A program made the translations under genes and the position numbers. A DNA stretch of 61,497 nucleotides from Sphingobacteriales bacterium (GTDB taxonomy: Bacteria > Bacteroidota > Bacteroidia > AKYH767-A > OLB10), in NCBI GenBank assembly GCA_021299095.1, contig JAJTFW010000002.1, positions 1 to 61,497 of the forward strand. Reading direction: 5' to 3'. Under the pieces are notes generated by a model that searched no databases, was not told the DNA's origin, and saw nothing but the letters and a program-made list of their open reading frames with translations. Positions 9,964 through 42,590 of this stretch are shown here, piece after piece. Position 1 is the stretch's first letter. Each line of letters starts with the position of its first letter.

Positions 9964-9975
9964 GCACAATTCACC

Positions 9976-13579: not shown

Positions 13580-13600
13580 AGGATAGACATGGGTGATGTA

Positions 13601-13608
13601 CGAAGTTA
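13601..13608 (-). promoter_or_regulatory. -7 box of the POT transporter gene (TAACTTCG)
   Basis: TAACTTCG on the minus strand is a TTCG variant of the Bacteroidota -7 element. It ends 21 nt before the ATG at 13579, predicting a leader of about 15 nt. No -33 match was found. Confidence 0.4.
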
Positions 13609-13687
13609 CCGAAAGAAAAGTATAGACAGGAATGCTAACCCGCCACTCCGAATCAGTAATTAAGCTGTGTAATAAGCTTTCCAGCTA

Positions 13688-16294: not shown

Positions 16295-16329
16295 AGTAAG
16301 GGAGGATTCGCTTATATTTGTAAGAGAGG

Positions 16330-16337
16330 CAAAGTTA
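16330..16337 (-). promoter_or_regulatory. -7 box of alaS (TAACTTTG)
   Basis: A perfect TAnnTTTG on the minus strand lies 35 nt before the alaS ATG. A TTCG occurs about 20 bp further upstream (16360-16357), inside the start of the divergent M23 peptidase gene. Confidence 0.5.
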
Positions 16338-16346
16338 ATCAAAGAG

Positions 16347-17318: not shown

Positions 17319-17333
17319 CTTACATCATCCGGC

Positions 17334-17678
17334 ATGGAAACGCACTCCCAATCTGAACAGGACCAGGAAAAGCTGTACTACCCGATCGGAGAGGTGGCAA
17401 CAATTTTTGGTGTAAACACATCGCTCATCCGGTTCTGGGAAAAGGAGTTTGAGGTGCTAAAGCCAAAGAAGAATAAAAAAGGAAACCGTTTATTCACCCG
17501 TGAGGATATGGCGAATCTGCGGTTGATCTACCACCTGGTAAAAGAACGTGGTTATACGCTCGACGGTGCCAAGAAAGTATTGAATGGGAAGCGTGAAGAA
17601 GTGGATAAGCAGGTAGAACTACGAAATGCACTCACGGGCCTGCGCAGCTTTTTGGTTGAGTTGAAGGACCAACTTTGA
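17334..17678 (+). CDS. MerR family transcriptional regulator
   Basis: The protein has 114 residues. The winged helix-turn-helix spans about 15-85 (YPIGEVATIFGVNTSLIRFW, then the wing with NRLFTREDMANL), followed by a short dimerisation helix. No cysteines suited to metal binding and no effector domain are present, so the signal is unknown. Short MerR proteins of this type are commonly found behind M23 peptidases in Bacteroidota; the 15-nt spacing suggests cotranscription. Confidence 0.88.
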   Translation: METHSQSEQDQEKLYYPIGEVATIFGVNTSLIRFWEKEFEVLKPKKNKKGNRLFTREDMANLRLIYHLVKERGYTLDGAKKVLNGKREEVDKQVELRNALTGLRSFLVELKDQL

Positions 17679-17685
17679 TTGAAAT

Positions 17686-18129
17686 TCAGGATTTCACCCG
17701 GAACGAGAATACCCGGTGAATGAAGAAACTCAGAAATCCGATAAACAAAGCGGAAGCCGCACGTGAAAGTGTTGGATACCATTCGAGGTTTCGGATCAAA
17801 ACACGCATAAGCATCCAGTTTAAGGCAAGGATCAGCATGGCCACAAGCACATAACGGAACAATTGCTTGTGTGTCTCAAGTTCTGACTCCTTGAACACAA
17901 GCCATTTCGTCAAGGTGAAATTGGTAAGTAATCCCGCAGTGTAACTCATCAGCAAGGATGCAGTCGTTGACGCCACAACCAGCCCGTTCGTGATGACGAT
18001 ATCAGTCTTTTTGTAGAGGTAATTGTAAACCAGAAAATACGTCAGCACGTCCACCCAAGTAGCCAATCCGGCGGATAGGAAATACCTGAACAGTTTGTTG
18101 TCCAGAATGTGCTGAACAAATTTGTGCAT
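17686..18129 (-). CDS. GtrA family membrane protein
   Basis: The protein has 147 residues with four transmembrane helices and the GtrA pattern (FRYFLSAGLATWVDVLTYF near the N-terminus, RAASALFIGFLSFFIHRVFSF at the end, quoted separately). GtrA proteins act in moving polyprenyl-linked sugars across the inner membrane. The ATG at 18129 is preferred to the upstream TTG. A TACTTTTG octamer (18140-18133) overlapping the hldD stop could serve as its own promoter 3 nt before the start. Confidence 0.85.
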   Translation of the reverse strand: MHKFVQHILDNKLFRYFLSAGLATWVDVLTYFLVYNYLYKKTDIVITNGLVVASTTASLLMSYTAGLLTNFTLTKWLVFKESELETHKQLFRYVLVAMLILALNWMLMRVLIRNLEWYPTLSRAASALFIGFLSFFIHRVFSFRVKS

Positions 18130-18131
18130 GG

Positions 18132-19121
18132 TCAAAAGTAGGTTCCAGTCCGCAGGTAATGTCCCACATAATCCGCGACCCCCTCTTCCAAACGGGTGAA
18201 TGGCTTGGAATAGCCTGCCGAAATGAGTTTGGACATGTCAGCCTCTGTAAAATACTGGTATTTATCACGGATATCGGTGGGCATATCGACGTACTCGACT
18301 TGAGTTTCTTTATTCAAGGATGAGAATACGGCAGCTGCCAGATCGTAAAACGAACGGGCAGTTCCGGAACCCAGGTTGTAAATTCCGGAAGGAGTGCCCC
18401 TTCCCATCAAATGAAGGCAAACTTCAACCACATCTTTCACATAAACGAAATCACGCAGTTGCCAGCCATCCGCATAGTCTGATCGGTGAGATCTGAATAA
18501 GCGAACAGAACCCTTCTCTAAAATCTGGTGGTAAGCATGAAAAATCACCGAAGCCATTCTGCCTTTGTGGTATTCATTCGGTCCATATACGTTGAAGAAC
18601 TTCAGTCCATGCCAAGCGGGAGGCGCCTCAGTCTGCTCCAATGCCCAAAGATCAAAGCGGTGCTTAGACCAACCGTAGGGGTTTAGTGGCTGTAATAATG
18701 GAATTCCAACGTGGCTATCCGAGTATCCATGCTCTCCTCCACCGTATGTGGCTGCAGATGACGCATAAACAAAGGGGATTCGCCCTGATGCACAAATACT
18801 CCAAAGGGACTTGGTATAATCCAGATTGAGACGAGACAACAAGGCTTCATTCTGCTCTGTGGTATCTGTTCTGGCACCTATGTGAAATACGAAAGAAACT
18901 TCCTCAGCATGTTCTTTGAACCAGTCAATAAACAATTCCCGCTCGATTTTTTTCTCAAAACGCTTAGCCTGGAGATTGTGTGATTTGGAGAGTACACTGA
19001 AATCATCCACCAGGATCAAACGTTCATACCCCGCATGGTTTAAACGGGACACCAGACAACTGCCGATAAATCCAGCGGCACCGGTTACAACAATACAGGA
19101 TTCAGGATTTGAGGGTTTCAT
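18132..19121 (-). CDS. hldD: ADP-L-glycero-D-manno-heptose 6-epimerase-like SDR enzyme
   Basis: The enzyme has 329 residues and is an extended short-chain dehydrogenase. It has the Rossmann motif TGAAGFIG (13-20), the GARTDTTEQN segment matching the HldD family, and the catalytic YxxxK (Y149, K153 in NPYGWSKH). HldD epimerises ADP-heptose for lipopolysaccharide core synthesis. The start at 19121 puts the Rossmann motif at the usual place; the longer frame would lie inside mqnD. Its 5' end overlaps the 3' end of mqnD by 20 nt, so the genes mqnD, hldD and gtrA are probably linked. Confidence 0.85.
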   Translation of the reverse strand: MKPSNPESCIVVTGAAGFIGSCLVSRLNHAGYERLILVDDFSVLSKSHNLQAKRFEKKIERELFIDWFKEHAEEVSFVFHIGARTDTTEQNEALLSRLNLDYTKSLWSICASGRIPFVYASSAATYGGGEHGYSDSHVGIPLLQPLNPYGWSKHRFDLWALEQTEAPPAWHGLKFFNVYGPNEYHKGRMASVIFHAYHQILEKGSVRLFRSHRSDYADGWQLRDFVYVKDVVEVCLHLMGRGTPSGIYNLGSGTARSFYDLAAAVFSSLNKETQVEYVDMPTDIRDKYQYFTEADMSKLISAGYSKPFTRLEEGVADYVGHYLRTGTYF

Positions 19122-19953
19122 CGTCGAGGAACAAAGGTTCAGTGGGTAATGACAAGATGCCGGAGGAAATGCCAACACGATACAATTGCCGGATGGCAGA
19201 CTTACCCTCTTCACCCAAATCTATTGAATATCGGTTTACGTAGAGCTCGATATGGCTACGTTGAACTACTGGATCCATATCATTTGCATGAGCAGCCACA
19301 AATCCGGAGGAGATATCGGGATTGGCCAACGCCATTTCAACGGAGTGACGTAGCGATTCCTGGAAAGCCACCTTGGTTTTATGATCAAGGCTTCGTCTAA
19401 TTAGGATACACCCTAACGGCACAGGCATACCGAAACGGCTTTCCCAAAGGGCTCCGAGATCGGATAATTTGACAAGACCATCCTTGTTATAGGTGAACCG
19501 TTTTTCATGAATTAACAATCCGCAAGTACCCGGATGAGCCATGATACGTTCACCGACATCAGAAAACAAACAGGATTCTTTCCGTTTTAGTTGGGGATAA
19601 AAAGTTGAAAGCAATAAATTGGCGGTTGTACGTTCTCCAGGAATATAGACCAGCGTTTCAATGTCCAAATCTGCATGCGGAAATCCTGCTCTGGTCACAA
19701 GCAATGGCCCACAACCAAACCCCAATGCGGCTCCGCATGAAAGCACCTGATACTGTGCTGAAACAGCAGGCACCTGAGCTATACTGACTTTGATGACGTC
19801 CGCGGTAGACTCTTCGGCCATCTGGTTCAGAACTTCCACATCGTGGAACTCAACCTCTGCAGAGAAAGGGTGATCGAATCGCCGGTTGACCAGGCCATCA
19901 AAAATAAATGTATCGTTCGGGCAGGGAGAAAATGCCAGCCTCAGGTTCTGCAT
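19102..19953 (-). CDS. mqnD: 1,4-dihydroxy-6-naphthoate synthase (futalosine pathway)
   Basis: The 283-residue protein begins LRLAFSPCPNDTFIFDGLV, the hallmark of MqnD, which converts cyclic dehypoxanthinyl futalosine to 1,4-dihydroxy-6-naphthoate in the alternative menaquinone pathway. The two-lobed periplasmic-binding-protein-like fold fits the length; STADVIKVSIAQVPAV and GCGPLLVTR are further family blocks. The ATG at 19953 is preferred over the GTG one codon upstream because a -7 box ends 4 nt before it. The UbiD-like decarboxylase gene at 21149-22976 is a likely pathway partner. Confidence 0.9.
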   Translation of the reverse strand: MQNLRLAFSPCPNDTFIFDGLVNRRFDHPFSAEVEFHDVEVLNQMAEESTADVIKVSIAQVPAVSAQYQVLSCGAALGFGCGPLLVTRAGFPHADLDIETLVYIPGERTTANLLLSTFYPQLKRKESCLFSDVGERIMAHPGTCGLLIHEKRFTYNKDGLVKLSDLGALWESRFGMPVPLGCILIRRSLDHKTKVAFQESLRHSVEMALANPDISSGFVAAHANDMDPVVQRSHIELYVNRYSIDLGEEGKSAIRQLYRVGISSGILSLPTEPLFLDDETLKS

Positions 19954-28557: not shown

Positions 28558-28950
28558 TTAAAGTTTCTCGCGAATCAGTGAGGCGACTTCGGCAAGGCGC
28601 TCATGGCCCGGATTCAGTTTGGCTTGAGTAAAGTTGATGTCACCCACATGATTCATTGGAACCAGGTGAATGTGCGCATGTGGTACTTCAAGCCCAATAA
28701 CTGCGACACCGATACGCTTACAGGGGATTGCCGAACGAATTGCGGGCGCTACGGAATATGCAAAGGACCAAAGGTTGCGAAAGGACTGCTCATCCATATC
28801 GAACAGGTAATCCGTTTCAACCTTTGGAATAACTAACACGTGTCCCTCAACCAGGGGCATGATGTCTAAAAATGCGAGGTGATGCTCGTCCTCGGCAATC
28901 TTATGGCATGGAATCTCCCCGTCTACTATTCGTGTGAAAATGGATGGCAT
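28558..28950 (-). CDS. HIT family hydrolase
   Basis: The protein has 130 residues with the histidine triad PHAHIHLVP (about 90-98) and the N-terminal IVDGEIPCHKIAED block of the HINT branch. HIT proteins hydrolyse nucleotide phosphoramidates or dinucleotide polyphosphates. It follows greA by 1 nt, so the two are cotranscribed, and it converges on ruvC. Confidence 0.92.
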   Translation of the reverse strand: MPSIFTRIVDGEIPCHKIAEDEHHLAFLDIMPLVEGHVLVIPKVETDYLFDMDEQSFRNLWSFAYSVAPAIRSAIPCKRIGVAVIGLEVPHAHIHLVPMNHVGDINFTQAKLNPGHERLAEVASLIREKL

Positions 28951-28951
28951 C

Positions 28952-29434
28952 TTAAGAACTAGACAATGAAATATCCAAAATCTCGAATTTCATTACTCCA
29001 CCGGGAGTGGTGATATCAGCAACTTCACCCACTTTTTTCCCGAGGAGGCCTTTCCCGATGGGTGAGGAAACGGAGATTTTTCCGGCCTTGAGGTCAGCTT
29101 CGTTTTCCGCAACGAGTATGTAAGCCATTTCTGCCTTGTTGCCCAGGTTCCTGATTTTCACTTTACACAACACCGAGACCTTCGACGTATCCAGTTTTGA
29201 TTCGTCGATAAGTCGGGCCGAGGCAACAAGTTCCTCCATTTTCGAAATTTTAAGTTCGAGTAGCCCCTGTGCATCTTTTGCTGCATCGTATTCGGCATTT
29301 TCGGAAAGGTCACCCTTGTCGCGCGCCTCTGCGATCTGGCGAGATATACTCGGCCGCTCAACGTTTTTGAGATGAGCTAGTTCGTCCTGAAGTTTTCGAA
29401 GACCTTCTTCGGTTAGGTAAGTGATTTTTGACAT
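28952..29434 (-). CDS. greA: transcription elongation factor GreA
   Basis: The factor has 160 residues: an N-terminal coiled coil (about 1-75) with the tip motif RDKGDLSENAEYDAAK, then an FKBP-like domain with SPIGKGLLGKKVGEVADI. It rescues backtracked RNA polymerase through the secondary channel. The tip acidic residues (D and E in DLSENAE) are intact. It is the first gene of the greA-HIT pair. Confidence 0.96.
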   Translation of the reverse strand: MSKITYLTEEGLRKLQDELAHLKNVERPSISRQIAEARDKGDLSENAEYDAAKDAQGLLELKISKMEELVASARLIDESKLDTSKVSVLCKVKIRNLGNKAEMAYILVAENEADLKAGKISVSSPIGKGLLGKKVGEVADITTPGGVMKFEILDISLSSS

Positions 29435-29465
29435 GGAAAAAACAAGTTGAGCTGGGCCCGAATAT

Positions 29466-29498
29466 GAAAGACCCCTCCTTTTAAAGGAGAGGTCTTTC
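29466..29498 (-). terminator. terminator-like hairpin after the PorV-like gene
   Basis: A long stem pairs GAAAGACC(C)CTCCTTT with AAAGGAGAGGTCTTTC. It lies 17 nt past the stop of the PorV-like gene and before greA, separating the envelope operon from greA. The T-run on the minus strand is short (TTTCATATTC). Confidence 0.65.
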
Positions 29499-29515
29499 TC
29501 GGGTCAAGTGATGAA

Positions 29516-30583
29516 TCAGAGATTGAAACGTGCACCGATGGTGTGCGAACCATCAAAGGTGCGTGTGGCGCGGTAACCGTAGTCGATTGCAAAGGACTTC
29601 TCGGACTTTTTACCCAGAGGAACTTGCACAGTCATACCACCGCTCAAACCGATGAGTGATGAAATGGGGTCATCCACAATCGCATTCTTATCCTTCTTGT
29701 CGAAGGTATATGCGCCTCGCAACATGAACATCTGACGGAATCCGTATTCGAAACCAACCCCGAACTGATCGCGGATGAACGAATTGGAAGTGAACGACAA
29801 GGCAGGTGTAAGACGATGGTCAGTTGCGAGTGGGATATTGTAAGAAACTCCGATACAAACCAGTGACGGCATTTCAAACCGCTCCGCGCGCTGCTGCTGC
29901 AGTACGTTGATATCGGCAAGGGCGTTGTCGTTCCGGAAGGCAAGACCTTCACCATCGAACTTCATCGGAGTTCCGACGTTGCGCAGGGCAATGCCGAACT
30001 TCAAATCATCTTTGGCTTCATTGAAACCGGTGATGTATTGAATACCAGCATCAATGGTCAGACCTTGAGACTTAACATCGTTGATGGACTCAGATACCAT
30101 CCGTACGGTCAAGCCACCATAGATGCTATTGCTGAATTCCTTCGCATAACTAAATGCCACTGTCAGGAATTGTGGGCTAAATGTACCCAGGCCTCCATCG
30201 GGCTGAGCCTCAGTCGTACGCTCGATATCACCGAAACGCATCGACATGACTGAAAGTCCGAGTGAGCCAGACTCGCCCACCTTTTGTGCAACACCAAAAC
30301 TGGAAATCTTGATGTCTGAACCCTTCAGCCAGTCGGTTTGAGCAAAGACCACTTCAGTGCCTTTGTTCATTCCTAAGCCGGCTACGTTCAGGTTCATGGC
30401 TTCAACGCCACGGACAAGTGCTATGTTACAACCACCCCATCCGGCAGTGCGAGCCCAAGGGTTGATCAGCAATTCACTTGCACCGGCCTGGCCTACGCGG
30501 TCTTCATTGCCGGCAGTAGCCTGAGGAGCAGTCAGGACGAGGAGTAGTCCGGCTGCCAGAATATGATTGAGTGCTTTTTTCAT
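29516..30583 (-). CDS. PorV/PorQ family outer membrane protein
   Basis: The protein has 355 residues with a signal peptide (MKKALNHILAAGLLLVL...ATAG) followed by GQAGASELLINPWARTAGWGG, the start pattern of the PorV/PorQ family, and a FadL-like beta-barrel ending in ...TIGARFNL. PorV is the shuttle subunit of the type IX secretion system that binds sorting domains of cargo. This copy is the last gene of a TonB receptor/1310-residue protein/PorV-like operon (33-nt gap upstream), so it may serve that protein specifically. It may be a paralogue rather than the housekeeping PorV. Confidence 0.8.
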   Translation of the reverse strand: MKKALNHILAAGLLLVLTAPQATAGNEDRVGQAGASELLINPWARTAGWGGCNIALVRGVEAMNLNVAGLGMNKGTEVVFAQTDWLKGSDIKISSFGVAQKVGESGSLGLSVMSMRFGDIERTTEAQPDGGLGTFSPQFLTVAFSYAKEFSNSIYGGLTVRMVSESINDVKSQGLTIDAGIQYITGFNEAKDDLKFGIALRNVGTPMKFDGEGLAFRNDNALADINVLQQQRAERFEMPSLVCIGVSYNIPLATDHRLTPALSFTSNSFIRDQFGVGFEYGFRQMFMLRGAYTFDKKDKNAIVDDPISSLIGLSGGMTVQVPLGKKSEKSFAIDYGYRATRTFDGSHTIGARFNL

Positions 30584-30616
30584 ACGCGTGCTGTATAGTT
30601 TTTTCCGGTGCATTTA

Positions 30617-33600
30617 TTAGAATGAATCAAGGTCAATCGGACGCATGACGCCAAACCACTTAACAACTTTTTCGCCCAAATCACCGCCATCTACGTGGAT
30701 GATATAGATGCCACTGGCAACGGTAATACCAGCCGTGTTTTTCAAATCCCAATCCTGGGTAGTAGCTGTGTTGAAATCCTGACCTTCGAATACGGCCTGT
30801 CCGCCACTCACATCGCTGGGCACATCACGCTTGTACTGACGAACAAGCGTTCCATTCACCGTATAGATTGAAATAGTGCAGCGGGAGGGCAAGTTTGTAA
30901 TCCGTACCCGGTTGTCAAGCTGATCTTTCCGTGTCTTCTCATAGGTTGAATATGCGTAATACGGATTTGGAACAACACGAATCAAATCAAGGGCAGCCTC
31001 GGCAGCCGACTTGACTCCTGTTGAAGCCTGCATGCTTGTTGGAATCTCGAATTCGTACAAGGGGTTACCGGCGTTTACGGCTGTAGCTCCCGGGGTAACG
31101 AAGTTCTTGTAATCCTTGGTTACGCGCAGACGGATTTTAACGTCGCTCTCGAGGATAGAGTGCCCCTGGCCGAGAAGTGGTAGGCTGGTCCAGATACAAT
31201 CTTTGTACGTATTCCGCTTCGCTACCAGGTTGCCGGTTGACAGGAGTGAATCAATCCGCTTACCGTTGTCATAAATCGGAATGTCTGTTGCAAGGTTTCC
31301 GTTTTTGTTGAAGACATAGATGTAGTGGCCACCACCGAGTGACAAACGACCGTTGCTGTCAGTGCCAGTCGTACTCGTGGGGTTCCAAAGCATGTCGGTA
31401 CCGTTTTCACCTACAAGCGCAGAGTTTTCACCGAATGCGATGTTCAATCGCTCCCCGGTTTCAACATTGATGGCATAACCTGGGAACCAACCCATTCCTG
31501 TAGCGGAAACGAAATCGGCATCGGTTGGGTCGGTGCTAACAACACCGTCACCAGCTTGGCCATTCTTGTCTACAGAGGGTGATTTACGCTTGTCGAATTT
31601 CTTGGCTGCTCCGATGTTGGGCATTGTATCCTCGCCAATCTCAACCACAACCGAACGGGTCCACTTGCTCTTATCACTGGTGATTACCAGGTCAACGCTG
31701 GCAATAGAGGTAAACTTAATTACAGCGTCCAAAGGAGCGTTGTTCAACTTCGGAGCTCCGACGTAATTACGGGCAGCGAGTCGGAATGGAGCCCATGTAC
31801 CACCGAGGAGTGTTTCGTATACCGCATCAGGATCAACGGGTGTTGTTCCAACCGAATAGTCTGTTGATTCAGATCCAGCCAGAATCCAGTCCCTGGTTGT
31901 TGACCCATCAGCATCGGCAACACCAGTCAGCCAGTTCTTGCCCGGAATACTGAACTCCTGTGTCGCTTCAAGGAATCCATTACCCGGAGCTCCGTCTCCC
32001 GGCTCTCTACCATTCACCTTAGATATGTTGAATGCAATTTTATTCGCTTCAAGCAATTGCTCGTATGGAGTGTCAAGAGTAAACAAACTGCTGTCCACCA
32101 AGGTGCTGCTCGCATTGTCATACACAAAGTATCGCGAGTCATCAGTGATTCCGTTGAACTGAACCTTAAAACCTCCGCCCTGCAATTTGATCGGATCATA
32201 AACAGAGACATTAATCGGTCCTCGGCCTTTTTCATAAATCGGATTTACAGCACGATTGTCAGCACTGTTCAGGATTTCATTCACTGTCTCGTCTGTGAGA
32301 TCAAGCACATTACCACCGTTACCGGTTCCTTCAATCCTCTTAATCTTGAATCCATCACCGAACGATGCATTCAAAACCATTCCGCCATTGTTAACGACCG
32401 GCTTATGTGGAATACCGGAGTACACTTTCACGTTCTTACGACCTTGCAAATAGGGCTCAGGCTGTGAGTTGGTCGCATTGGGAGCCTGTGGATTGAACGT
32501 CCTAAAGTTGTTGCTGGCGTAAGAAATGACCAGGAAGTAATAAGGACGATAGTTTACGATCGGCTTCAGCGTGAAGAGATCCTGAGTGATGATGAAGTTG
32601 TGCGTTACACCCGCATTAACCTCATCGGTCTTCTGAACCGGGATGTATGAATTGAGGTTATTGTCGAAGGTGTAGTTGACAAGTTTAGTGACGCCATCTT
32701 CAAGATCGATCTGAGCAATCAATTTTGCTTTCGCAGGATCGTCGACATCGGAGACAGATACAATTTCATTGACAACCTGATACACTTTGTATCCCTGGAA
32801 TTTGTAGCTACGCTCGTCGACAGTAAGGGTGTCGAAAACGATTGTCGAGTCGTTGATCTGATCACCTACCACACCAGGAATGTTCTTGTCAAACTGAGAG
32901 TACAGTTCCACCTTGGGTGTCCGTGTATTCTCGAGGGTCAGAATAAGTTGCTTGTCAAGCTCGCGGATAGCAACCTCTGGCGCATCAGGACCGTCCAATA
33001 CTTTAAAGCAATTGTTGAACAGACGCTGGGCAAGGTCGTCGGCACGCTTTACAACCGCCACAGAAGCAAGCGGACCACCCGCTGCAGCACGTCCCCAAAC
33101 AACACCTGTAGTGATGTAATTTACAGCGCCAGGCTGCAGTGTGAAGATACCCGCTGATTGCAGAAAACGCATATCGGTAGGTTGAATGCTCGCAGTAACC
33201 ATGGTCCATGGAGTAGAGAACGAAGGATCCGTCGTTCCAGGAAACATGTAGTTACAAGGCGTAGTTGTAGCGCCGGTACCCGCTCCGCGACCGTTTCCAC
33301 CATATGTGATGGTTTGGCCATCGAGCCAGCTGCCGCTTAGGTATTCGTAGTAATCATCGGTTACTTGAGGGTTTCCGTTGGGAACACCGCTCGTATTTTC
33401 ATAGTACACGAAACGTGACATCGTAATCTGCTCGCCGGGTTCGTCAACGCGGCCGTCACGGTTATTGTCAATTCCATCGTTCAAATCAGCCAATGGTCCC
33501 TGGAAGAAGTCGATTCCGACAGCGGGGGGATTCAGTCCGTAAGCACCACCTCCGTCGTCATCCGGGTCACCGTTGTAGCAGTAGCCCAATCCCAGACCAA

Positions 33601-34549
33601 CGTCACAACCAACATAGTCATCGGCAGCGTTACCAAGATCCGGGTCACACCAAACACCAAAATACGTCGAATCGAGTTCGTTGCTGGAGCGGTTGATGAC
33701 CTGGTATTTGTAGAAGGTCATGAAGTTGATGTCGTTGGACGTGTTGAATGCGAAAGCCTGAGCACGCACTTCAAGTCCAATCGGATTGCTGTTGGTTTCT
33801 GTCTTGATACCACCTACATCATTGAATACCCACCAAATCGACTTGTCGCCGAACAGGTAGTCATTACAAACGGTTTCACCCGTTCCTGGATCCGTTGGAT
33901 AATCACCGTCCAGCTTGAAGTAGGGATAATCACCATCCTCGTGGTTGTAGACACCATCGTTGTTGGCATCAAAATAAGGGGCAAGGAAAGGCAATTCGCC
34001 GTTACCAACATTACCATTACCAGGCCAGCTCTGAATATTCGTAGATGCCTGACCGGTAGCCAGGAATTCTTCTACTTCATCACGGGTAACACCCCAAAAA
34101 CGATCGAATTCGTTGCAACGAGTGTCGTTGATGGTCATTGCGCCAGTTGATGGGTCTTTCGAAATCGGACCACCCCAAAAATCATTGGCACCTCCCTGGC
34201 GATAGGTTTGTGCCGCAACCAATAATTGGTTACTCTGGTCAAATCCACCGATCCAAAGAGCACCGGAGAAAATTGAGTTCTTATTGGAACCAATTGGCAC
34301 TTCATAGTAAGGGATTTGGCCTACCGGATCCCACCATAAGTCACCACCAACAAGGATACGCGCACGAACCTGATTTACGTCTAGGTCGATTTGCGCCTTG
34401 GTGGTAGGACATACTGCAGCCGACCTGGAAGCTTTCGGAGCCGGATTCGCATACCTGTTAGCGCCCACATTTTCTCTGGCAGATGCGCTCAGAGACAGGG
34501 CTGCCACGAGTACTCCACTGAGTACGGATTTATATCGAAGCATATTCAT
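30617..34549 (-). CDS. 1310-residue secreted protein with a T9SS-like C-terminal domain
   Basis: It has a signal peptide (about 1-24), then a long beta-rich region. Asp-rich, calcium-loop-like stretches occur at 193-217 (FDANNDGVYNHEDGD) and near 360 (DGIDNNRDGRVDEPGE). The C-terminal 110 residues have VVPNPYYAYS, ISIYTVNGTLVRQYKRD, a WDLKN step and GITVASGIYIIHV, the layout of a type A T9SS sorting (or FlgD Ig-like) domain, with an extra tail after the usual end. No catalytic domain was recognised. It is cotranscribed with the TonB receptor (23 nt upstream) and the PorV-like protein, which suggests surface display or release through T9SS. Function unknown. Confidence 0.75.
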   Translation of the reverse strand: MNMLRYKSVLSGVLVAALSLSASARENVGANRYANPAPKASRSAAVCPTTKAQIDLDVNQVRARILVGGDLWWDPVGQIPYYEVPIGSNKNSIFSGALWIGGFDQSNQLLVAAQTYRQGGANDFWGGPISKDPSTGAMTINDTRCNEFDRFWGVTRDEVEEFLATGQASTNIQSWPGNGNVGNGELPFLAPYFDANNDGVYNHEDGDYPYFKLDGDYPTDPGTGETVCNDYLFGDKSIWWVFNDVGGIKTETNSNPIGLEVRAQAFAFNTSNDINFMTFYKYQVINRSSNELDSTYFGVWCDPDLGNAADDYVGCDVGLGLGYCYNGDPDDDGGGAYGLNPPAVGIDFFQGPLADLNDGIDNNRDGRVDEPGEQITMSRFVYYENTSGVPNGNPQVTDDYYEYLSGSWLDGQTITYGGNGRGAGTGATTTPCNYMFPGTTDPSFSTPWTMVTASIQPTDMRFLQSAGIFTLQPGAVNYITTGVVWGRAAAGGPLASVAVVKRADDLAQRLFNNCFKVLDGPDAPEVAIRELDKQLILTLENTRTPKVELYSQFDKNIPGVVGDQINDSTIVFDTLTVDERSYKFQGYKVYQVVNEIVSVSDVDDPAKAKLIAQIDLEDGVTKLVNYTFDNNLNSYIPVQKTDEVNAGVTHNFIITQDLFTLKPIVNYRPYYFLVISYASNNFRTFNPQAPNATNSQPEPYLQGRKNVKVYSGIPHKPVVNNGGMVLNASFGDGFKIKRIEGTGNGGNVLDLTDETVNEILNSADNRAVNPIYEKGRGPINVSVYDPIKLQGGGFKVQFNGITDDSRYFVYDNASSTLVDSSLFTLDTPYEQLLEANKIAFNISKVNGREPGDGAPGNGFLEATQEFSIPGKNWLTGVADADGSTTRDWILAGSESTDYSVGTTPVDPDAVYETLLGGTWAPFRLAARNYVGAPKLNNAPLDAVIKFTSIASVDLVITSDKSKWTRSVVVEIGEDTMPNIGAAKKFDKRKSPSVDKNGQAGDGVVSTDPTDADFVSATGMGWFPGYAINVETGERLNIAFGENSALVGENGTDMLWNPTSTTGTDSNGRLSLGGGHYIYVFNKNGNLATDIPIYDNGKRIDSLLSTGNLVAKRNTYKDCIWTSLPLLGQGHSILESDVKIRLRVTKDYKNFVTPGATAVNAGNPLYEFEIPTSMQASTGVKSAAEAALDLIRVVPNPYYAYSTYEKTRKDQLDNRVRITNLPSRCTISIYTVNGTLVRQYKRDVPSDVSGGQAVFEGQDFNTATTQDWDLKNTAGITVASGIYIIHVDGGDLGEKVVKWFGVMRPIDLDSF

Positions 34550-34572
34550 AGCGTGTTGACGTGGTTAGTGGA

Positions 34573-37500
34573 TTAAAAGTCAAAGCGGACTCCCACACGC
34601 GTACGGCGGGGAAGGCTGTAGTTATCGGGATTTTGAATCCGGATGTTATACTGGTCGATAAATGCCTGAGGAGAGGCCTGCTGATTGGCAAGCTGCTGTC
34701 CTTCCGCAGAGGCGATAAAGCCATCATCCGTTGGGTTACCCGTTGCACGATAAACACCGGTGATGTTCTGTGTATTGAGCAGGTTCTGTACCCACAGATA
34801 TACGTTAAACGTAGCGGTCTTTTTCTCGTTGATCTTAATGTTGATGTCTTTTTCGATACGTGCATCGATGCGGAACTGCCAGGGTGTGCGGGCTCCGTTG
34901 ACCAGACCTTCAACACGACGCTGGCCGTTGTCCTGCCAGCCAATGGCTGCACCTTCGCGGGTTGCAATCAACTGACGGGTATAAGGAGTTCCGGAATTGG
35001 TTCGGAATACAAGGTTGGCACCTGTGTTTTGCAGGATTGGCTTACCCCAAAGCATTGGACCATTGTATGCACTGCCTTCGCCATAACGGTAATCGAGCGA
35101 TACAGTAAATGAATGGCGGGTGTCAAAATCCAGTGGCACCATGAAACGCAGATTAGGCTGCTCGGTGTCGGTCAACTCGAGGTTTGATGTTGCACCTGAA
35201 CCTGTACCATCGGCGAACTGCAAGGTGTAGTTTGCCAACATACGCACATTGCCTGTACGACGAAGGTCATAGATCAAGGAGAATCCTTTAACCGTTCCAA
35301 AGTCGATGTTGGCATACGATGTATAGGAGAACGGATAAGCGAAGTTCACACGCGTAACCTGAATCATGTTCTTCATTTCACGGTAGAATGCCGAAATGGT
35401 GAAGGCAGATGTCTTTGAAACAACTTGCTTGAAACCAACTTCGTAATCGGTGGTGCGCTCAGGTAAAAGGCCTGCATTGTTCAGTGTTCCGTCAGGATTC
35501 CGCACCAAGGAGAAATACTCGGACGGATCGTTCCGCAGGTTGGAAGATGGACGCTGAGTCAGTACATCATAGTGTGCGAAGAACTGAGCTTGGTCGGTGA
35601 TTGAGAAACTGAATGCCACACGGGGCATGATGCTGATCTGGGGCTCATAATCCTTGAATACGGCATCAATGTTCCAATCTTCTTCTGCCAGGGTTCCTGC
35701 ACCCGGCGTCTTGGCAGGAACAATGGTTCCGGTAGTTGACTGCTGAGCGATCAGGTCGGGGTTGGTAACAATCTGACCGTTCACATCATACCATACATCA
35801 CGGTCACGGTATCCGACAACAGAAGTCAAGTCGTTCTCATCCGCCAGGTATGGGACAAAATCGTCCTCAATGTTGCCTGGCTTGTTGGGAATGGCAACCG
35901 GATAGTTTCCAACGTTGTAGGCATCCAAAAGCAGGTAACGATCGCGCAATTGCTTTTGATTCGCGTCGAAACGGTCAACACGGACACCGACGTTGAAATT
36001 CAGGTTGTCGATGGCGAAATTATCCTGAATGTACGCTGACATGTATGTAGGACGGAAGGCATCGATTTCACGGGTGAAAACACCATTCTCCTTCTTGGTG
36101 AAGAAGTCCTTGAAGGTGGCTTTGTTGTTGCTAAGTTGACCGGTGTAATCGTAACCATAGTATCCTACCAAATTGTTAACGATCAGCTCATCAGGAGTGA
36201 ACATACCGATATCCAACTGTGAAGGATCTAGCGCATCGAAATCAACATATTCGTTGTTTGCAATTCCAAGGCTTGAACGGAGGTTTTCGTAAAAGCCATT
36301 GATGATGGTACCATCGGCATCCGTTTGGGGGACATAACCCGTAGCGTAATCGTTGGTCACCGTTAAATCCACAAAGTTGGTGTCGGAGCTGATCAGGTTG
36401 CTTTGGTCAACTAGCAGCAGCTTGTTCAGGTCGTTTGCGTACTGACGACCAAGCGTCCACAGACTACGCGGAGCCAAACCATAAGAACGGTCTACACGCT
36501 GCTCGAACTCGAAGCCGACCTGGATGGCATGCTTCTTAATATCAGCATTACCGCTCAGGGTTACGCGGTACTGTTCCGCATTCAAGTCCTGGAATGTATT
36601 ACGGCCGTTACCGATTGATTCCCAAATCGCCATTACGCTTTGAGTTCCATCTCCGTTCCTTAATCCACCCGGGCCACGGATGACGTTTATATTGCTGAAT
36701 GTGTTGCTTCCAGTTGCGGCCTGGTAAAAGTTGTACGCAGTTGAAGTGTAAGCCTCACTCAAGGGGTTCAATCCTCCGGCCTCGTACGTAAAGTTATCCT
36801 GGTAGAAAGGTGATAGAATCAGGAAGTCGTTCTCAATTGCTGTCGGGAAGAACGTCTTAACACGATTGTTCTTGAATTTTCCCAGGAATCCATAATTCCA
36901 GTAATTGTCCTGATGAACAGGATCCTGGTTACGCGACGTGCTCTTGTTGTATTCGGCCTGCAGTGTGAAATACACGTTGCGGAATGCAGAGGCTGACTCA
37001 CCCTCGGTTGACTTGTAGGTAGAGGCGATTCGCTGGGTAAATCGTCCGAAGATGCGGTAATCCGTGTCAATGATTTCGGGGTTCTCCTCGAAATTGTACA
37101 TCGAGCGGTTAATGGCGAAAGAAGTTCTGTTGTTACGGTTGTACGTTCCACCCAAGGTGAAATTGGTGTTTTCGAGGGGTTGGAAATCGACTTTACCGGT
37201 GAAACGCAGCGCCTGCTGCGCTACATTATTCTTGTTGGCAACCTTTTCAAAATTGTCCGAAGTGTAAAAAGCAGCGTTATTATCGAAACCGAATCCACCG
37301 GAAGTTTGGAAGGGGCGCACAGGGTTTTGGGAAAGCTCCTGGTAGTACTCGTCTTTCAACTTGTACATGCCAATAGCGGAGGGATCGGGATCCTTGTCAC
37401 TTTGAAACTCACCACTGATAAAGAATCCTAGAACTGGACGAGTGGCGCCATTGGCCATCTGGCGCTTCAGGATTGGTCTCGACAAGTTACCGGAAACCAA

Positions 37501-38247
37501 GTTATAACCGAAATTGTCCAGCACTTCGCTGGTAACTACCTCAAGTCCGCCTGAAAATTCCTTCGAGGGACCACGGGTTGTGATGCTGATGATACCACCG
37601 GTTGCATCACCGTACTGCGCTGGCGTACCACCTACAATGGTAGTAACCTGTTCTACGCCGGCCTGGGGCAGTGCTGAACTTCCACGGATTCGGATACCGT
37701 CCACGTAGTAATCGGTAGCATTGTCGCGTGAACCGCGCACGTTGAGTGCATCGCCATCATCTTTCTGGAAGACACCAGCAGCTTGAGAGGCAACTGAACG
37801 AACGTCCCTGGTTGGGGCAGCCTGGATTTCCTCGCGGGTCAGGGTGGCACCTACTGTTGTGTTACCTTTATCAATCAGAGGAACCTTGTAAGATTCCACA
37901 ACCACCTCCTTGGTTTCAATGGCTTTTGAGGCCATGTTGATATCCCAGAAAGTGATTTTGTCGTTTGCTACAACAACGCCGGTGATGACATAATCCGTGT
38001 AACCGACATAACTCACCTTCACCGTGTAACTACCCGGTTGCAGGGGCTTGATGGTGTATTCTCCATTGAAATCAGACTGTGAACCTCCGACCTGGGTGCC
38101 GTTCATCTCCGCAACTACAGAGGCGAATGGCAAGGGCTCCTTGGTGGTTTTGTCCATGATCTTTCCGCGAATCGCACCGGTCTGTGCGAATGCTCCAGTC
38201 ACGGCCATGATCACAATCAGCAGTGTGGTGTAGGCATTCCTTATCAT
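34573..38247 (-). CDS. large TonB-dependent receptor with carboxypeptidase-like N-terminal domain
   Basis: The receptor has 1224 residues: a signal peptide ending ...GAFAQ, a carboxypeptidase-regulatory-like domain (about 25-110; GKIMDKTTKEPLPFASV), a plug (about 115-225; ALNVRGSRDNATDYYVDGI) and an outer membrane barrel ending in F (VGVRFDF). It is longer than SusC-type receptors and has no SusD partner; instead the 1310-residue protein and a PorV-like barrel follow. The ligand is unknown. A promoter lies at 38315-38346. Confidence 0.88.
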   Translation of the reverse strand: MIRNAYTTLLIVIMAVTGAFAQTGAIRGKIMDKTTKEPLPFASVVAEMNGTQVGGSQSDFNGEYTIKPLQPGSYTVKVSYVGYTDYVITGVVVANDKITFWDINMASKAIETKEVVVESYKVPLIDKGNTTVGATLTREEIQAAPTRDVRSVASQAAGVFQKDDGDALNVRGSRDNATDYYVDGIRIRGSSALPQAGVEQVTTIVGGTPAQYGDATGGIISITTRGPSKEFSGGLEVVTSEVLDNFGYNLVSGNLSRPILKRQMANGATRPVLGFFISGEFQSDKDPDPSAIGMYKLKDEYYQELSQNPVRPFQTSGGFGFDNNAAFYTSDNFEKVANKNNVAQQALRFTGKVDFQPLENTNFTLGGTYNRNNRTSFAINRSMYNFEENPEIIDTDYRIFGRFTQRIASTYKSTEGESASAFRNVYFTLQAEYNKSTSRNQDPVHQDNYWNYGFLGKFKNNRVKTFFPTAIENDFLILSPFYQDNFTYEAGGLNPLSEAYTSTAYNFYQAATGSNTFSNINVIRGPGGLRNGDGTQSVMAIWESIGNGRNTFQDLNAEQYRVTLSGNADIKKHAIQVGFEFEQRVDRSYGLAPRSLWTLGRQYANDLNKLLLVDQSNLISSDTNFVDLTVTNDYATGYVPQTDADGTIINGFYENLRSSLGIANNEYVDFDALDPSQLDIGMFTPDELIVNNLVGYYGYDYTGQLSNNKATFKDFFTKKENGVFTREIDAFRPTYMSAYIQDNFAIDNLNFNVGVRVDRFDANQKQLRDRYLLLDAYNVGNYPVAIPNKPGNIEDDFVPYLADENDLTSVVGYRDRDVWYDVNGQIVTNPDLIAQQSTTGTIVPAKTPGAGTLAEEDWNIDAVFKDYEPQISIMPRVAFSFSITDQAQFFAHYDVLTQRPSSNLRNDPSEYFSLVRNPDGTLNNAGLLPERTTDYEVGFKQVVSKTSAFTISAFYREMKNMIQVTRVNFAYPFSYTSYANIDFGTVKGFSLIYDLRRTGNVRMLANYTLQFADGTGSGATSNLELTDTEQPNLRFMVPLDFDTRHSFTVSLDYRYGEGSAYNGPMLWGKPILQNTGANLVFRTNSGTPYTRQLIATREGAAIGWQDNGQRRVEGLVNGARTPWQFRIDARIEKDINIKINEKKTATFNVYLWVQNLLNTQNITGVYRATGNPTDDGFIASAEGQQLANQQASPQAFIDQYNIRIQNPDNYSLPRRTRVGVRFDF

Positions 38248-38314
38248 AGAGTTTGGTTTGTGTCGGTGTAAAAGAGTGAAATGAGGTTAATGTTCGGTTA
38301 ATTTTCAGAAGGGC

Positions 38315-38346
38315 TAAAAATAGAAACAAATGATTTGAATTTCAAA
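38315..38346 (-). promoter_or_regulatory. promoter of the TonB receptor/large protein/PorV operon
   Basis: On the minus strand -33 TTTG (38346-38343) and -7 TATTTTTA (38322-38315) are spaced by exactly 20 bp, about 67 nt before the ATG. The last -7 base deviates from the consensus G. Confidence 0.4.
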
Positions 38347-38390
38347 AAGCACTGATTATTGACAGCGAGTTATTAACAGCCTGTGCTGTT

Positions 38391-38828
38391 TTAATTGTAT
38401 TTCCTGCTCATTAACTCATTGATTAAGAAAGCCTTCTTTAAATCTATTGTCCCGTTGCTAACTTCTTCACCAATCAGAGCCGCCCTGGAAGGTTCCACAG
38501 TTCCCGCAACTGAATTGTTTTCTACAGGGTCACTTATTATCCCCGCATCTAACGGCTTCGACTCTGCTAATTCATACGCGTAAGCGTCTGGCAACTCTTG
38601 ATTCGGCCGTATGAAAGAACCCGATTTTTTTTGTGTGGTTTTAATTAACGTAGGCCGAGGAGCTGGCCGTTTCAATGATCTGGAAACAGCAGTAGGTGCG
38701 GGGACATCGACTGGGCGCATATCAGATGAAGGTATCGGCGACTTGATCGGTGATTGCTGTTTATGAAGCAATTTCGAGAGCAGCCAGGCCAATCCGACGA
38801 TGATGTAAACGAGGGTCTTGAACTCCAT
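38391..38828 (-). CDS. hypothetical protein with N-terminal membrane anchor
   Basis: The protein has 145 residues with one N-terminal transmembrane helix (about 4-20) followed by a Pro/Ser/Lys-rich disordered region and an amphipathic C-terminal segment ending LKKAFLINELMSRKYN. No family recognised. It is divergent from smc. A TACATTTA box (38841-38834) ends 5 nt before its ATG. Confidence 0.6.
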   Translation of the reverse strand: MEFKTLVYIIVGLAWLLSKLLHKQQSPIKSPIPSSDMRPVDVPAPTAVSRSLKRPAPRPTLIKTTQKKSGSFIRPNQELPDAYAYELAESKPLDAGIISDPVENNSVAGTVEPSRAALIGEEVSNGTIDLKKAFLINELMSRKYN

Positions 38829-38939
38829 GCGGATAAATGTATCGGGTTTTCCACAATTTGAGTAGAAATGTTAAAAACTCTGACCGCACAAAGCAATCGG
38901 TTTTTGCAGCGTATTCCGCCTTGCTTTGTTAACTTGCGT

Positions 38940-38999
38940 GCCCCAAAGCGCCACCTAAAATCAGGCCGGTGTACATTCGATTTGCTCGTCCCTTGGGGC
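38940..38999 (+). promoter_or_regulatory. upstream region of smc
   Basis: The 204-nt gap before smc holds a TACATTCG octamer (38972-38979), a plausible -7 box 53 nt before the ATG. A 7-bp inverted repeat (GCCCCAA at 38940-38946 and TTGGGGC at 38993-38999) flanks it. No -33 match was found. Confidence 0.3.
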
Positions 39000-39032
39000 G
39001 GGCTTTCTTGTCTTAATTAACAGTGAAATGCA

Positions 39033-42000
39033 ATGCGACTAAAATCACTCGAAATCAAAGGTTTTAAAAGTTTTGGAGATAAAGTAATCATCCACTTCGA
39101 TGAAGGCGTAACCGCCATCGTAGGTCCAAACGGTTCTGGTAAATCAAATGTAGTTGACGCCATGCGCTGGGTACTCGGTGAGCAGAAGACCCGTATGCTT
39201 CGGAGCGAGAAAATGGAAAACATCATTTTCAACGGAACAAAAAACAGAAAGCCTTCCAATCTGGCTGAAGTCAGCCTGAGTTTCGAAAACACCAAAGGCA
39301 TTCTTCCGACAGAATACTCTACAGTTACTATCACACGCCGACTTTACCGATCCGGCGAATCAGAATACTTGCTCAATGGAGTAACATGCAGGTTGAAAGA
39401 CATCAATGACCTCTTCCTGGATACCGGAATCGGACCGGACTCCTATGCAATCATCGAACTGAATATGGTTGATGATATTTTGAAGGACCGGAACAACACC
39501 ATCAAAACGCTCTTGGAGGAGGCAGCCGGAATTTCGAAATACAAAATCAGGAAACGCCAGACATTTAATAAGCTCGAAGAAACCGATTCCGACCTGAACC
39601 GTGTCAATGACCTGCTGTTCGAGATCGAGAAAAGCCTAAAGCAGCTAGAGAGCCAGGCTAAGAAAACCGATAAATACTACAGACTCCGCGAGGAATACCG
39701 GACCTTAAGTACCCAGTTAGCCCTGTTCACAATCAGGCATCACAGCGGTGCAATGGAGTCCCTTCAGGCACGTGAACAAAGTCAGCATTCAAACCGAGGA
39801 GATCTTCAGCAAAAAATCGATGCGCTCGAAGCTCGTGTCGCTTCGCTGAAAACGGAGAGCTCCGACAAGGAAAGGCATTTTCAGGCAGTACAAAAAGCAC
39901 TGAATGAAAAAACGCTTGAGCTAACCGTATTTGAAAACGAAGAGAAAAACAGGAACGAACGTCTGACTTTTCTGCTCGAAAAGCAACGTCAACTTCAGGA
40001 GCAGCGTACGCAGGACGAAGGCAGCCTGAAGGACCTTTCGACAAAACTTGAGGCTCTGCAGCTTGAAAAAGTAGCAGAGGAGGAATACCTACGCACCCTC
40101 GAACAAAACGTGCAGACCCTGCGGGAGGAAGCCGACCGCTGTCGTGCAGCATATGATGCCGCTCAAATCAGTATTCGTGAACTCAACCAGCAAGTGTACC
40201 AACTCCGCAGCATGATCAATGAGCTGGAGACGAAGCAGGCTGTTAAAGACACACGCATCCAATCGATCGGAGAAGAGCTAAAACGATACCTCACTCAACA
40301 GGAAGAGCATAGTTCGCGTATCGCACAACTCGAATCGGAACTTGAGCTATTGAAGCCACAGCAGGAAAACGCCGATCAATCGTTACGCGACCTCAAACAA
40401 GAGCGTATCCGCCTTGACGAATCCCTTAACCTGTCGGAAGCGAAACTGAAAGAACTCAATCAGGTTTTACAAGCCGAATCCCGAAAACTGGATGCCAGAC
40501 ACAACGAATATCAGCTCACGAAAAATCTTCTTGAGCAAATGGAAGGTTATCCGGAATCAATTCGCTACCTAAAGAAAAACCACGATCGGTACAAACAAGC
40601 GCCACTGCTAAGCGAAATCGTTGTATGCGACGAGGAATACAAGGTTGCGATTGAGAATTTACTGGAACCTTACCTCAATCATTTCGTTGTTGATACCTAC
40701 CCAGAGGCCTGGGCAGCTGTACAAACCCTAAACGAATCAGCCAAGGGACGGGCGAACTTCTTCGTCTTGGAATCCCTGCGAAAATTCAGTGCACCTACAA
40801 TACACGCACTGGAGGGATGCGTTTCTGCCTTATCTGTCGTTGAAAAAGACGCGAGATACGAACCCTTGTTCCGTTTTCTGCTGGGCCATGTTCAGATTCT
40901 CGACAAGGATAGATCCTTACAGGATTTTCCAGAAGGCAGCGATCAGACAACCGTCGTCATATCGCAAAGCGGAAATTACCTGCGCCAGAAATACACGGTT
41001 GGCGGAGGTTCGATTGGCTTATTCGACGGTAAACGAACCGGAAAATTCCGCAACCTTGAAAAGCTTGCCGAGGAATTGAAGCAGCAGGAGCTGCTAATTG
41101 AACAATACAGAGAGCAGGTTCGACAAGCCGAATCGGAACTTACCAGGTTCAAACAGGACTTGCAGGATAATCAGCGCGCCTTGAGTGCCGGAGAAAATGA
41201 GTTTGTGAAGCTGAACTCCCAATCACATTCTTTACGTAGCAACCTAGACTTCTTTGGCAATAGTCTTGAGCAATCACGTCAGCGTTCTTCCAAATTGCAG
41301 GAGGAGGCAGACACCCTTCAACGCATTCAGGAAGAAGAACAGAACAACCCCGACCTCTCCCCTGCCCTGTTGCGCGAACGACTGGAACACCTGATCGAAC
41401 AATTGAATGTTCAACAGGAACAAAGTCTTCAACTGCAAACAGAATCCGCCGAAAAGGCACAGGCATTCAACCAACAGAATATTGTCATGCTCCAGCAGCA
41501 GAACAAAATTCAAAATGTCGTGCGCGAGATCGGCTACTGCAACACGCAAACAGACTCCATCGGAAAGAACATGGCGCAGTCGGCACTCGAACTGGAAACC
41601 ATCACCGAGCAATCGGTAGTGCTGATGGGCAACCAGGAGGGCAAAGGCGATTCTTACCGATTGTTAACCGAGGAAAAGGTGTCCTTCGAAAATGCCTACC
41701 GGGAAACGGAAGCAGAATACAACCAGGCCAAGCAGGCCATCGATCAGGAAGAACGCAACCTAAACGAACTCAGGAGGCAAAAGGAGCAAGCAGATGCATC
41801 CCTACAGGGAGTGCACGAAGAACTCAATGAGCTCAAGCTGCAAATGCACTCCTTGAAAGAACGCCTCAACATTGAATTCAACATCGACATCCAGGACCTC
41901 GGCGCAACTGAGCCGGACCCCGAATTCAATGAGGAGGAATCCCGCCCCCGTGCCGAGCAACTACGTAAGCGCCTCGCTGATTTCGGCCCCATCAACCCGA

Positions 42001-42590
42001 TGGCACTTGAGCAGTACAAGGAAATCAAAGAGCGGTACGACTTCATCATCGCCGAAAAAACCGATTTGCAGAATGCAAAAGAGGCGCTTCTGAAAACCAT
42101 CAGCGAGATTGACGAGACCGCTCGAACCGTATTTTCTGAGGCATTCACCCAGGTGCGCGCCAATTTTATTCGAGTATTCCGCTCCTTGTTCACCGAGGAT
42201 GACAATTGCGACTTGGTACTTTCAGATCCGAACGACCCATTGGAATGTGATATCAATATCATAGCACAACCAAAAGGTAAAAAACCGCTGAGTATCCATC
42301 AACTTTCGGGGGGAGAAAAGACCCTTACGGCCACCGCACTACTGTTCGGAATCTACCTGCTGAAGCCTGCACCTTTCTGCATTTTTGATGAGGTTGATGC
42401 GCCACTCGATGACAACAACATCGATAAATTCAACAACATCATTAAAACGTTCAGCAACGAATCGCAGTTCATCATCATTACGCACAACAAAAAGACCATG
42501 GCGGCAACGGATATCATGTACGGAATCACCATGGCTGAACAAGGTGTAACCACTGTAGTGCCTGTGGACATGAGGGCCTTTGCCGAATAA
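39033..42590 (+). CDS. smc: chromosome segregation protein SMC
   Basis: The 1185-residue ATPase has the head Walker A GPNGSGKSN (32-40), a long coiled coil, the hinge (about 510-660, with ALLSEIVVCDEEYKVAIENLL split by its strand and the conserved GRANFFVLESL), a return coiled coil, the signature LSGGEKTL and Walker B FCIFDEVDAPLDD near the C-terminus. It folds and segregates the chromosome, normally with ScpA and ScpB, which are not in this window. Full length for the family. Confidence 0.97.
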   Translation: MRLKSLEIKGFKSFGDKVIIHFDEGVTAIVGPNGSGKSNVVDAMRWVLGEQKTRMLRSEKMENIIFNGTKNRKPSNLAEVSLSFENTKGILPTEYSTVTITRRLYRSGESEYLLNGVTCRLKDINDLFLDTGIGPDSYAIIELNMVDDILKDRNNTIKTLLEEAAGISKYKIRKRQTFNKLEETDSDLNRVNDLLFEIEKSLKQLESQAKKTDKYYRLREEYRTLSTQLALFTIRHHSGAMESLQAREQSQHSNRGDLQQKIDALEARVASLKTESSDKERHFQAVQKALNEKTLELTVFENEEKNRNERLTFLLEKQRQLQEQRTQDEGSLKDLSTKLEALQLEKVAEEEYLRTLEQNVQTLREEADRCRAAYDAAQISIRELNQQVYQLRSMINELETKQAVKDTRIQSIGEELKRYLTQQEEHSSRIAQLESELELLKPQQENADQSLRDLKQERIRLDESLNLSEAKLKELNQVLQAESRKLDARHNEYQLTKNLLEQMEGYPESIRYLKKNHDRYKQAPLLSEIVVCDEEYKVAIENLLEPYLNHFVVDTYPEAWAAVQTLNESAKGRANFFVLESLRKFSAPTIHALEGCVSALSVVEKDARYEPLFRFLLGHVQILDKDRSLQDFPEGSDQTTVVISQSGNYLRQKYTVGGGSIGLFDGKRTGKFRNLEKLAEELKQQELLIEQYREQVRQAESELTRFKQDLQDNQRALSAGENEFVKLNSQSHSLRSNLDFFGNSLEQSRQRSSKLQEEADTLQRIQEEEQNNPDLSPALLRERLEHLIEQLNVQQEQSLQLQTESAEKAQAFNQQNIVMLQQQNKIQNVVREIGYCNTQTDSIGKNMAQSALELETITEQSVVLMGNQEGKGDSYRLLTEEKVSFENAYRETEAEYNQAKQAIDQEERNLNELRRQKEQADASLQGVHEELNELKLQMHSLKERLNIEFNIDIQDLGATEPDPEFNEEESRPRAEQLRKRLADFGPINPMALEQYKEIKERYDFIIAEKTDLQNAKEALLKTISEIDETARTVFSEAFTQVRANFIRVFRSLFTEDDNCDLVLSDPNDPLECDINIIAQPKGKKPLSIHQLSGGEKTLTATALLFGIYLLKPAPFCIFDEVDAPLDDNNIDKFNNIIKTFSNESQFIIITHNKKTMAATDIMYGITMAEQGVTTVVPVDMRAFAE

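Follow-up and report, generated by a model that had tools for sequence, protein, structure and literature searches.

A recurrent TonB-dependent receptor, T9SS cargo and PorV-like barrel gene trio in Bacteroidota, a candidate counterpart of SusCD

We uncovered, in a 61,497-nucleotide stretch of Bacteroidota DNA (henceforth the window), a three-gene unit coding for a TonB-dependent receptor (TBDT), a 1310-residue secreted protein (the cargo) with a PorZ-type C-terminal T9SS sorting domain (CTD), and a PorV-like outer-membrane barrel. The trio recurs with conserved gene order, families and CTD type, co-occurs with the T9SS, diverges as a set of three genes, and is distributed in a nearly complementary manner to SusD. 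While no interaction, localisation or transport data exist, we lean slightly towards the proposal that this operon is an analogue of SusCD, in which the TBDT works with a T9SS-exported surface lid or receptor held on its own barrel. The export of the cargo and the family assignments are well supported, and its T9SS-dependent surface location is inferred. The more general proposition is evenly poised in our judgement: namely, that such trios form a Bacteroidota-wide class of TBDT uptake systems, wherein a T9SS-delivered receptor resides by means of an uncleaved PorZ-type CTD on a dedicated PorV-like barrel, replacing SusCD in SusD-free T9SS lineages. The parts all belong to known families, but we did not find their combination, its repetition or its relation to SusD described in open-access papers; the trio would work like SusCD and like SprB-SprF while being a member of neither. 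Likewise, searches of open-access papers on PorV-like proteins, PorQ, TonB, T9SS operons and Ignavibacteria yielded no description of the trio itself.

The window belongs to a 2.5-Mb assembly that is 96% complete; its nearest named records, with 78-80% identity, are assemblies from Bacteroidota metagenomes. The three minus-strand reading frames reported in the preliminary description are indeed open (Table 1), and the gaps of 23 and 33 nt between them stand, the latter only if the barrel starts at 30583 (MKK...), which is the start common to its homologues; an in-frame ATG is also present at 30613. The first product is, as claimed, a TonB receptor, combining a carboxypeptidase-D-regulatory-like domain with a Plug domain scoring above its cut-off. 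It gave no match to the SusC/RagA model TIGR04056 at E<=0.1, and a distant trio TBDT that does match this model aligns with it only over about 120 N-terminal residues (54.7 bits vs the cut-off of 368).

Table 1. Features of the trio and its downstream flank (positions are those of the window; residues are those of the respective protein)
Feature	Position	Strand	Basis
TonB-dependent receptor (TBDT), 1224 aa, Sec signal peptide, not SusC family	34573..38247	-	ORF and profile search
Carboxypeptidase-D-regulatory-like N-terminal domain of receptor, residues 26-117	37897..38172	-	CarbopepD_reg_2 1.3e-17
Plug domain of receptor, residues 135-219	37591..37845	-	PF07715 38.9 bits vs cut-off 23.9
Secreted protein (cargo), 1310 aa, Sec signal peptide without lipobox at the cleavage site	30617..34549	-	ORF; signal peptide judged by eye
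N-terminal passenger domain of cargo, about residues 40-520	32990..34432	-	Model resembles GH65/GH94/GH116 N-terminal super-sandwich domain
Ca-loop-like stretch DANNDGVYNHEDGDYP, cargo residues 194-209	33923..33970	-	Sequence; DYP invariant in 18 homologues; metal binding inferred from sequence likeness only
Second Ca-loop-like stretch DLNDGIDNNRDGRVDEPGE, cargo residues 355-373	33431..33487	-	Sequence; not kept in all homologues
C-terminal T9SS sorting domain of cargo, PorZ type, residues 1188-1310	30620..30988	-	NF052228 (PorZ) 3.6e-7 at 1188-1299; PorZ 5m11 fold
Terminal signature KWFGxxRPxDLDxF of cargo, beyond the usual type A CTD end	30620..30661	-	Alignment of 18 homologues
PorV/PorQ-family outer-membrane barrel (P0003), 355 aa	29516..30583	-	NF033709 139.2 bits vs cut-off 90
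Hairpin, terminator-like, between barrel gene and greA	29466-29498	.	Fold -31.3 kcal/mol for the surrounding 61 nt; consensus scan lists 29472-29489

The cargo gene is present in a single copy in its own genome, and homologues were recovered from 40 of 41 relatives, including all 33 of good quality. We searched with profiles the 63 cargo loci that had enough flanking sequence (a few being near-duplicates from close relatives): 59 of these display the TBDT, cargo and barrel genes in this order on one strand, and a TBDT is present in 60, with the gaps within the trio being mostly 0-110 nt. The remark on similar neighbours in other Bacteroidota that accompanied the first description was correct, and the trio is far more widespread than it implied. 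In the other four loci (L029, L087, L089 and L091) the cargo gene is an additional copy, each genome also having a cargo-barrel locus in the usual place: the complete trios L086, L088 and L090 are present in the genomes of L087, L089 and L091, while the L029 genome has a cargo-barrel-greA arrangement at another site. These cargos without a barrel of their own indicate that the barrel is not strictly one-to-one with the cargo; L087, L089 and L091, which lack a PorV-like gene, may use the barrel of the main trio. Upstream of the orphans L087 and L089 there is in each case a TBDT-like gene, but a shorter one (about 810 aa).

In Bacteroidia the trio locus is single. In 35 homologous loci from this class, to which the window belongs, greA directly follows the barrel gene, with SMC lying upstream in many of them, which points to an old, vertically inherited site. 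The window itself has the trio lodged between SMC and greA-HIT (28558-42590); its neighbours are housekeeping genes, with no CAZyme or other substrate gene beside it. In other classes the locus is multi-copy: eight genomes yielded 71 matches to the cargo-type CTD, up to 13 per genome, and a PorV-family gene lies 6-164 nt after 54 of them. All 20 units fetched from two such genomes were complete trios, though, as they had been preselected for a PorV-family gene after the cargo, this result adds only the TBDT. The paralogous units are old, with mean identities of about 0.33-0.40 for the TBDT, CTD and barrel, and their within-genome distances are correlated (Mantel r 0.67 and 0.69 for CTD-barrel and 0.89 and 0.84 for barrel-TBDT in the two genomes; P<=0.005), which shows that the three genes are passed down together. 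These correlations speak of the co-inheritance of the unit and not of contact between its products.

The host genome codes for SprA (G000:C41, 2632 bits) and about 100 type A CTDs above the cut-off. In a phylum-wide sample of 296 genomes with at least 90% completeness, SprA was found in 227 and the cargo in 143, all of which are SprA-positive; none of the 69 SprA-free genomes has the cargo. This co-occurrence is clade-structured, and its P values ignore phylogeny. Within the 227 SprA-positive genomes, 76 of the 77 that are free of SusD carry the cargo, and 83 of the 84 that are free of the cargo have SusD. The counts of SusD and cargo candidates are anticorrelated in these genomes (Spearman -0.72): of 42 with at least 20 cargo candidates, 36 are without SusD, and of 34 with at least 20 SusD candidates, 29 are without the cargo. 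The copy numbers in this comparison are first-look candidates; full SusD (PF07980) counts were made for 24 genomes, giving zero in the window genome (E<=1e-5), two relatives and ten trio-rich genomes, one in an eleventh trio-rich genome, and 20-37 in three cargo-free genomes from another family of the same class. The two are not mutually exclusive, as at least one SusD occurs in 67 of the 143 cargo genomes, such as G202 with 62 SusD and one trio, leaving 76 without SusD. The pattern is, moreover, clade-structured, such that nominal P values overstate the evidence. With these reservations, the near-complementarity in gene content is the pattern to be expected of a functional replacement. It lends unexpected support to the earlier remark that the giant protein stands in place of SusD, with the coupling to the TBDT remaining an inference. 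As the trio is widespread and repeated in bacteria without the classical SusCD, it may be their unrecognised counterpart. A single SprA-positive genome, G045, has neither SusD nor the cargo.

We propose that the trio might operate as follows. The TBDT would be inserted in the outer membrane. The cargo would be exported by Sec, its PorZ-type CTD folding in the periplasm, and threaded through SprA, whereupon it is inferred to be collected specifically by its own PorV-like barrel, P0003, and not by PorV. It would then remain parked, uncleaved, on P0003, with its large, super-sandwich-like passenger placed over the adjacent TBDT in a putative physical complex. Its retention on the barrel is inferred from the CTD being of the kind that is not removed: the CTD of PorZ is uncleaved, PorZ staying on PorQ, as PorU does on PorV (PMC8545088, PMC10202324). 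From there, the cargo might capture or gate a ligand for import powered by TonB; a saccharide or glycoconjugate is the probable, inferred class of this ligand. The cargo would thereby fill the role of SusD or BtuG by different means, as a T9SS-delivered, barrel-held lid without a lipid anchor. Precedents for the proposed mechanism are found in PMC10202324, PMC8545088, PMC9143113, PMC12618676 and PMC10994853.

The most serious rival, though an improbable one in our estimate, is that the cargo is a structural or adhesive T9SS surface protein with a dedicated barrel as its anchor and no part in uptake, the TBDT being merely co-transcribed or serving in energising or sorting. The pairing of a CTD with its barrel would then follow the logic of the type B/SprF pairs (PMC9143113, PMC12618676), and the single, greA-syntenic Bacteroidia locus amid housekeeping genes is indeed unlike substrate-specific uptake loci. 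However, the TBDT is the third constant member of the loci, its distances most closely track those of the barrel and the cargo body (r 0.84-0.91), and the complementarity with SusD points to a role for the cargo as a TBDT partner.

Two outcomes had been named as potential refutations of the earlier reading, a lack of co-occurrence of the three genes in other genomes and a failure of the tail, called T9SS-like, to match sorting profiles; neither materialised. The genes do co-occur, and the tail is a T9SS CTD of the PorZ type by both sequence and fold, but it misses the type A cut-off, its TIGR04183 score being 13 bits against the required 23 or more. No match to the type B CTD model TIGR04131 was seen for the window cargo at E<=0.1. 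The PorZ model NF052228 covers the CTD alone; it is matched by 12 of the 13 distant homologues and by 9 of the 18 near ones, and TIGR04183 is weakly matched by 11 and 7 of these, respectively, with some distant ones passing its cut-off (e.g., at 24.1 bits). In a predicted structure of cargo residues 600-1310 (pLDDT 64.6), the single PDB match below 0.001 is the PorZ CTD 5m11 (Foldseek 5.6e-5), with which the modelled CTD superposes at Z 9.7 (rmsd 2.6, 88 aligned residues, 26% identity), vs Z 7.1 for PorU (6za2) and 6.6 for the RgpB CTD (5ag8). In the terminal signature, K1297, W1298, R1303, P1304 and L1307 are invariant across 18 homologues, which are 41-80% identical. A Lys that contacts PorV is almost invariant close to the end of type A CTDs (PMC10994853); judged by sequence alone, the signature of the cargo also includes an invariant Lys.

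These features weigh on the doubtful possibility that the cargo is an ordinary T9SS substrate beside a generic PorV paralogue, with PorU cleaving the CTD for release or linkage to LPS, and that the linkage of the genes reflects nothing more than expression. The low-scoring homology to type A CTDs and the orphan cargo copies without a barrel gene are compatible with this account. Nevertheless, ten ordinary substrates of the same genome, picked as strong type A matches, all match TIGR04183, and none matches the PorZ model at E<=0.1. The passenger domain is shared by shorter stand-alone proteins that are not accompanied by a barrel gene of their own, and each of the seven tested ends in an ordinary type A tail (34-45 bits); hence, the PorZ-type tail goes with the barrel gene and not with the passenger. 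Moreover, the barrel gene adjoins the cargo gene in 59 of the 63 loci, as it does in each of the 20 paralogous units. Some paralogous cargos fit neither TIGR04183 nor the PorZ model well. As a separate observation, the locus L158 (G294:C96:3600-23474) holds, at 296-19532, 11 tandem genes for proteins of about 555 aa, all with the cargo passenger domain; the two members tested both have ordinary type A tails, and a second array is found at G294:C200.

Barring the PorZ match in the CTD, profile searches against Pfam and NCBIfam assigned the 1310-residue protein to no general family, and PDB sequence searches with the cargo and with the barrel returned nothing meaningful. Two other identities for the cargo were ruled out: a surface lipoprotein, as no lipobox Cys was seen by eye at the signal-peptide cleavage site (in the N-terminus MNMLRYKSVLSGVLVAALSLSASARE the first Cys does not come before residue 47); and a SusD/RagB protein, as neither PF07980 nor another SusD model in Pfam/NCBIfam was matched. 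The predicted structure of residues 40-620, of a mean pLDDT of only 58.6, resembles the N-terminal super-sandwich domains found in GH65, GH94, GH116 and enzymes related to them (216-250 residues superposed at Z 12.5-13.5; the best at Z 13.5, rmsd 3.9, 216 aligned), with Foldseek E-values of only about 1e-3. These N-terminal domains are not the catalytic domains of such enzymes. The likeness, which hinges on a model, is thus a lead towards carbohydrate and no proof, since a common fold does not show function. The structural search with the C-terminal half covers only the CTD, leaving the middle (about residues 620-1180) without a fold assignment. As for the description of the cargo as Ca-loop-containing, two Ca-loop-like stretches are present, but only parts of the first are well kept, and several homologues lack the second; accordingly, calcium was left out of the proposed mechanism.

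The barrel, true to its billing as PorV-like, exceeds the cut-off of the PorV/PorQ-family model (Table 1). It does not reach the equivalogs for PorV (NF033710, 61.2 bits vs 250) or PorQ (NF033711, 81.9 vs 220), nor the PorP/SprF models (TIGR03519, 20.8 vs 90.55; PF11751, 19.7 vs 22.3). The host genome has a PorU-PorV gene pair, PorQ and a PorP-family protein elsewhere; with true PorV and PorQ accounted for, the window barrel is a third PorV-family barrel. One could still imagine a second attachment-type complex, with the cargo as a PorZ-like handler of glycolipid or glycan in surface anchoring, seated on P0003 as PorZ is on PorQ, and the TBDT in charge of glycan recycling or import; the PorZ-nearest CTD and the family of the barrel are in its favour. 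We hold this to be distinctly unlikely, given that the PorZ likeness is limited to the CTD, the fold search with the passenger giving super-sandwich domains and not beta-propellers, that PorU, PorV and PorQ proper are encoded elsewhere in the genome, and that the roughly ten diverged copies per genome elsewhere are unfit for housekeeping attachment. Least credible, and set aside, is an accessory of BAM akin to BamG-BamH, in which a FadL-type barrel and its extracellular partner aid outer-membrane protein assembly: despite the core-like synteny in Bacteroidia and the precedent of BamG, a FadL homologue whose loops bind extracellular BamH (PMC12578637), the cargo carries a T9SS CTD and no lipobox, the barrel is recognised by the PorV/PorQ model, the units are multi-copy and tied to TBDTs, and the cargo is absent from half of the sampled genomes, when BamGH is reported to be universal in the phylum (PMC12611786).

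Comparisons with known systems place the favoured lidded-transporter reading at the junction of several of them. Like SusCD/RagAB, the trio combines a TBDT with a large, putatively surface-exposed partner encoded by a neighbouring gene, is found in many diverged copies per genome, and is a candidate for ligand capture over the transporter; unlike them, its partner is neither SusD nor a lipoprotein and ends in a T9SS CTD, its TBDT has no SusC match, and it has a constant third gene for a PorV-like barrel. BtuB-BtuG is a TBDT with a surface lipoprotein lid. The trio would share the lid-on-transporter logic of that system, which is cited in PMC12578637, but where BtuG is a lipoprotein, the anchor here would be a barrel reached via the T9SS. 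In the type B systems SprB-SprF and PG1035-PorP, too, a T9SS cargo gene is followed by that of its own FadL-family barrel, which exports and holds it (PMC9143113, PMC12618676); the trio differs in its CTD of the type A/PorZ fold, its PorV/PorQ-family barrel and the inclusion of a TBDT. PorZ-PorQ and PorU-PorV offer the closest CTD, the same barrel family and a CTD that stays on (PMC8545088, PMC10202324), whereas the trio has a different passenger, is no part of the machinery and is linked to a TBDT.

To date, the surface partners described for TBDTs are in the main lipoproteins, such as SusD and BtuG, and the T9SS barrels described are mainly shuttles, either generic or for type B substrates. 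If our proposal is true, the trio would join two hallmark systems of the phylum, TBDT uptake and the T9SS, and would explain lidded transporters in SusD-free lineages (76 of the 143 cargo-positive genomes). It would also widen the rule of CTD-shuttle specificity from type B to type A-like tails, and provide a role for many genes whose present annotation is no more than “PorV/PorQ family protein” or hypothetical.

The regulatory signals earlier ascribed to the operon fared unevenly. The proposed promoter at 38315-38346 is unsupported: promoter-like matches in the region number 10, vs 13.3 expected in shuffles, and its -7 element is TATTTTTA, not TAnnTTTG. The latter is the form known for Bacteroidota. 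The terminator placed after the barrel gene is a strong, near-perfect stem, but matches to the terminator consensus in the region are at the level of chance (16 vs 14 expected). Calling the operon a closed unit is a slight overstatement: the hairpin is there, but greA, the neighbour kept in the 35 homologous loci, starts on the same strand only 81 nt further downstream, so that it could be reached by read-through. Upstream of the trio lies a 145-aa reading frame (38391-38828) with an N-terminal hydrophobic segment, whose only matches among the loci searched are L021/L101, from one relative, at 32% identity.
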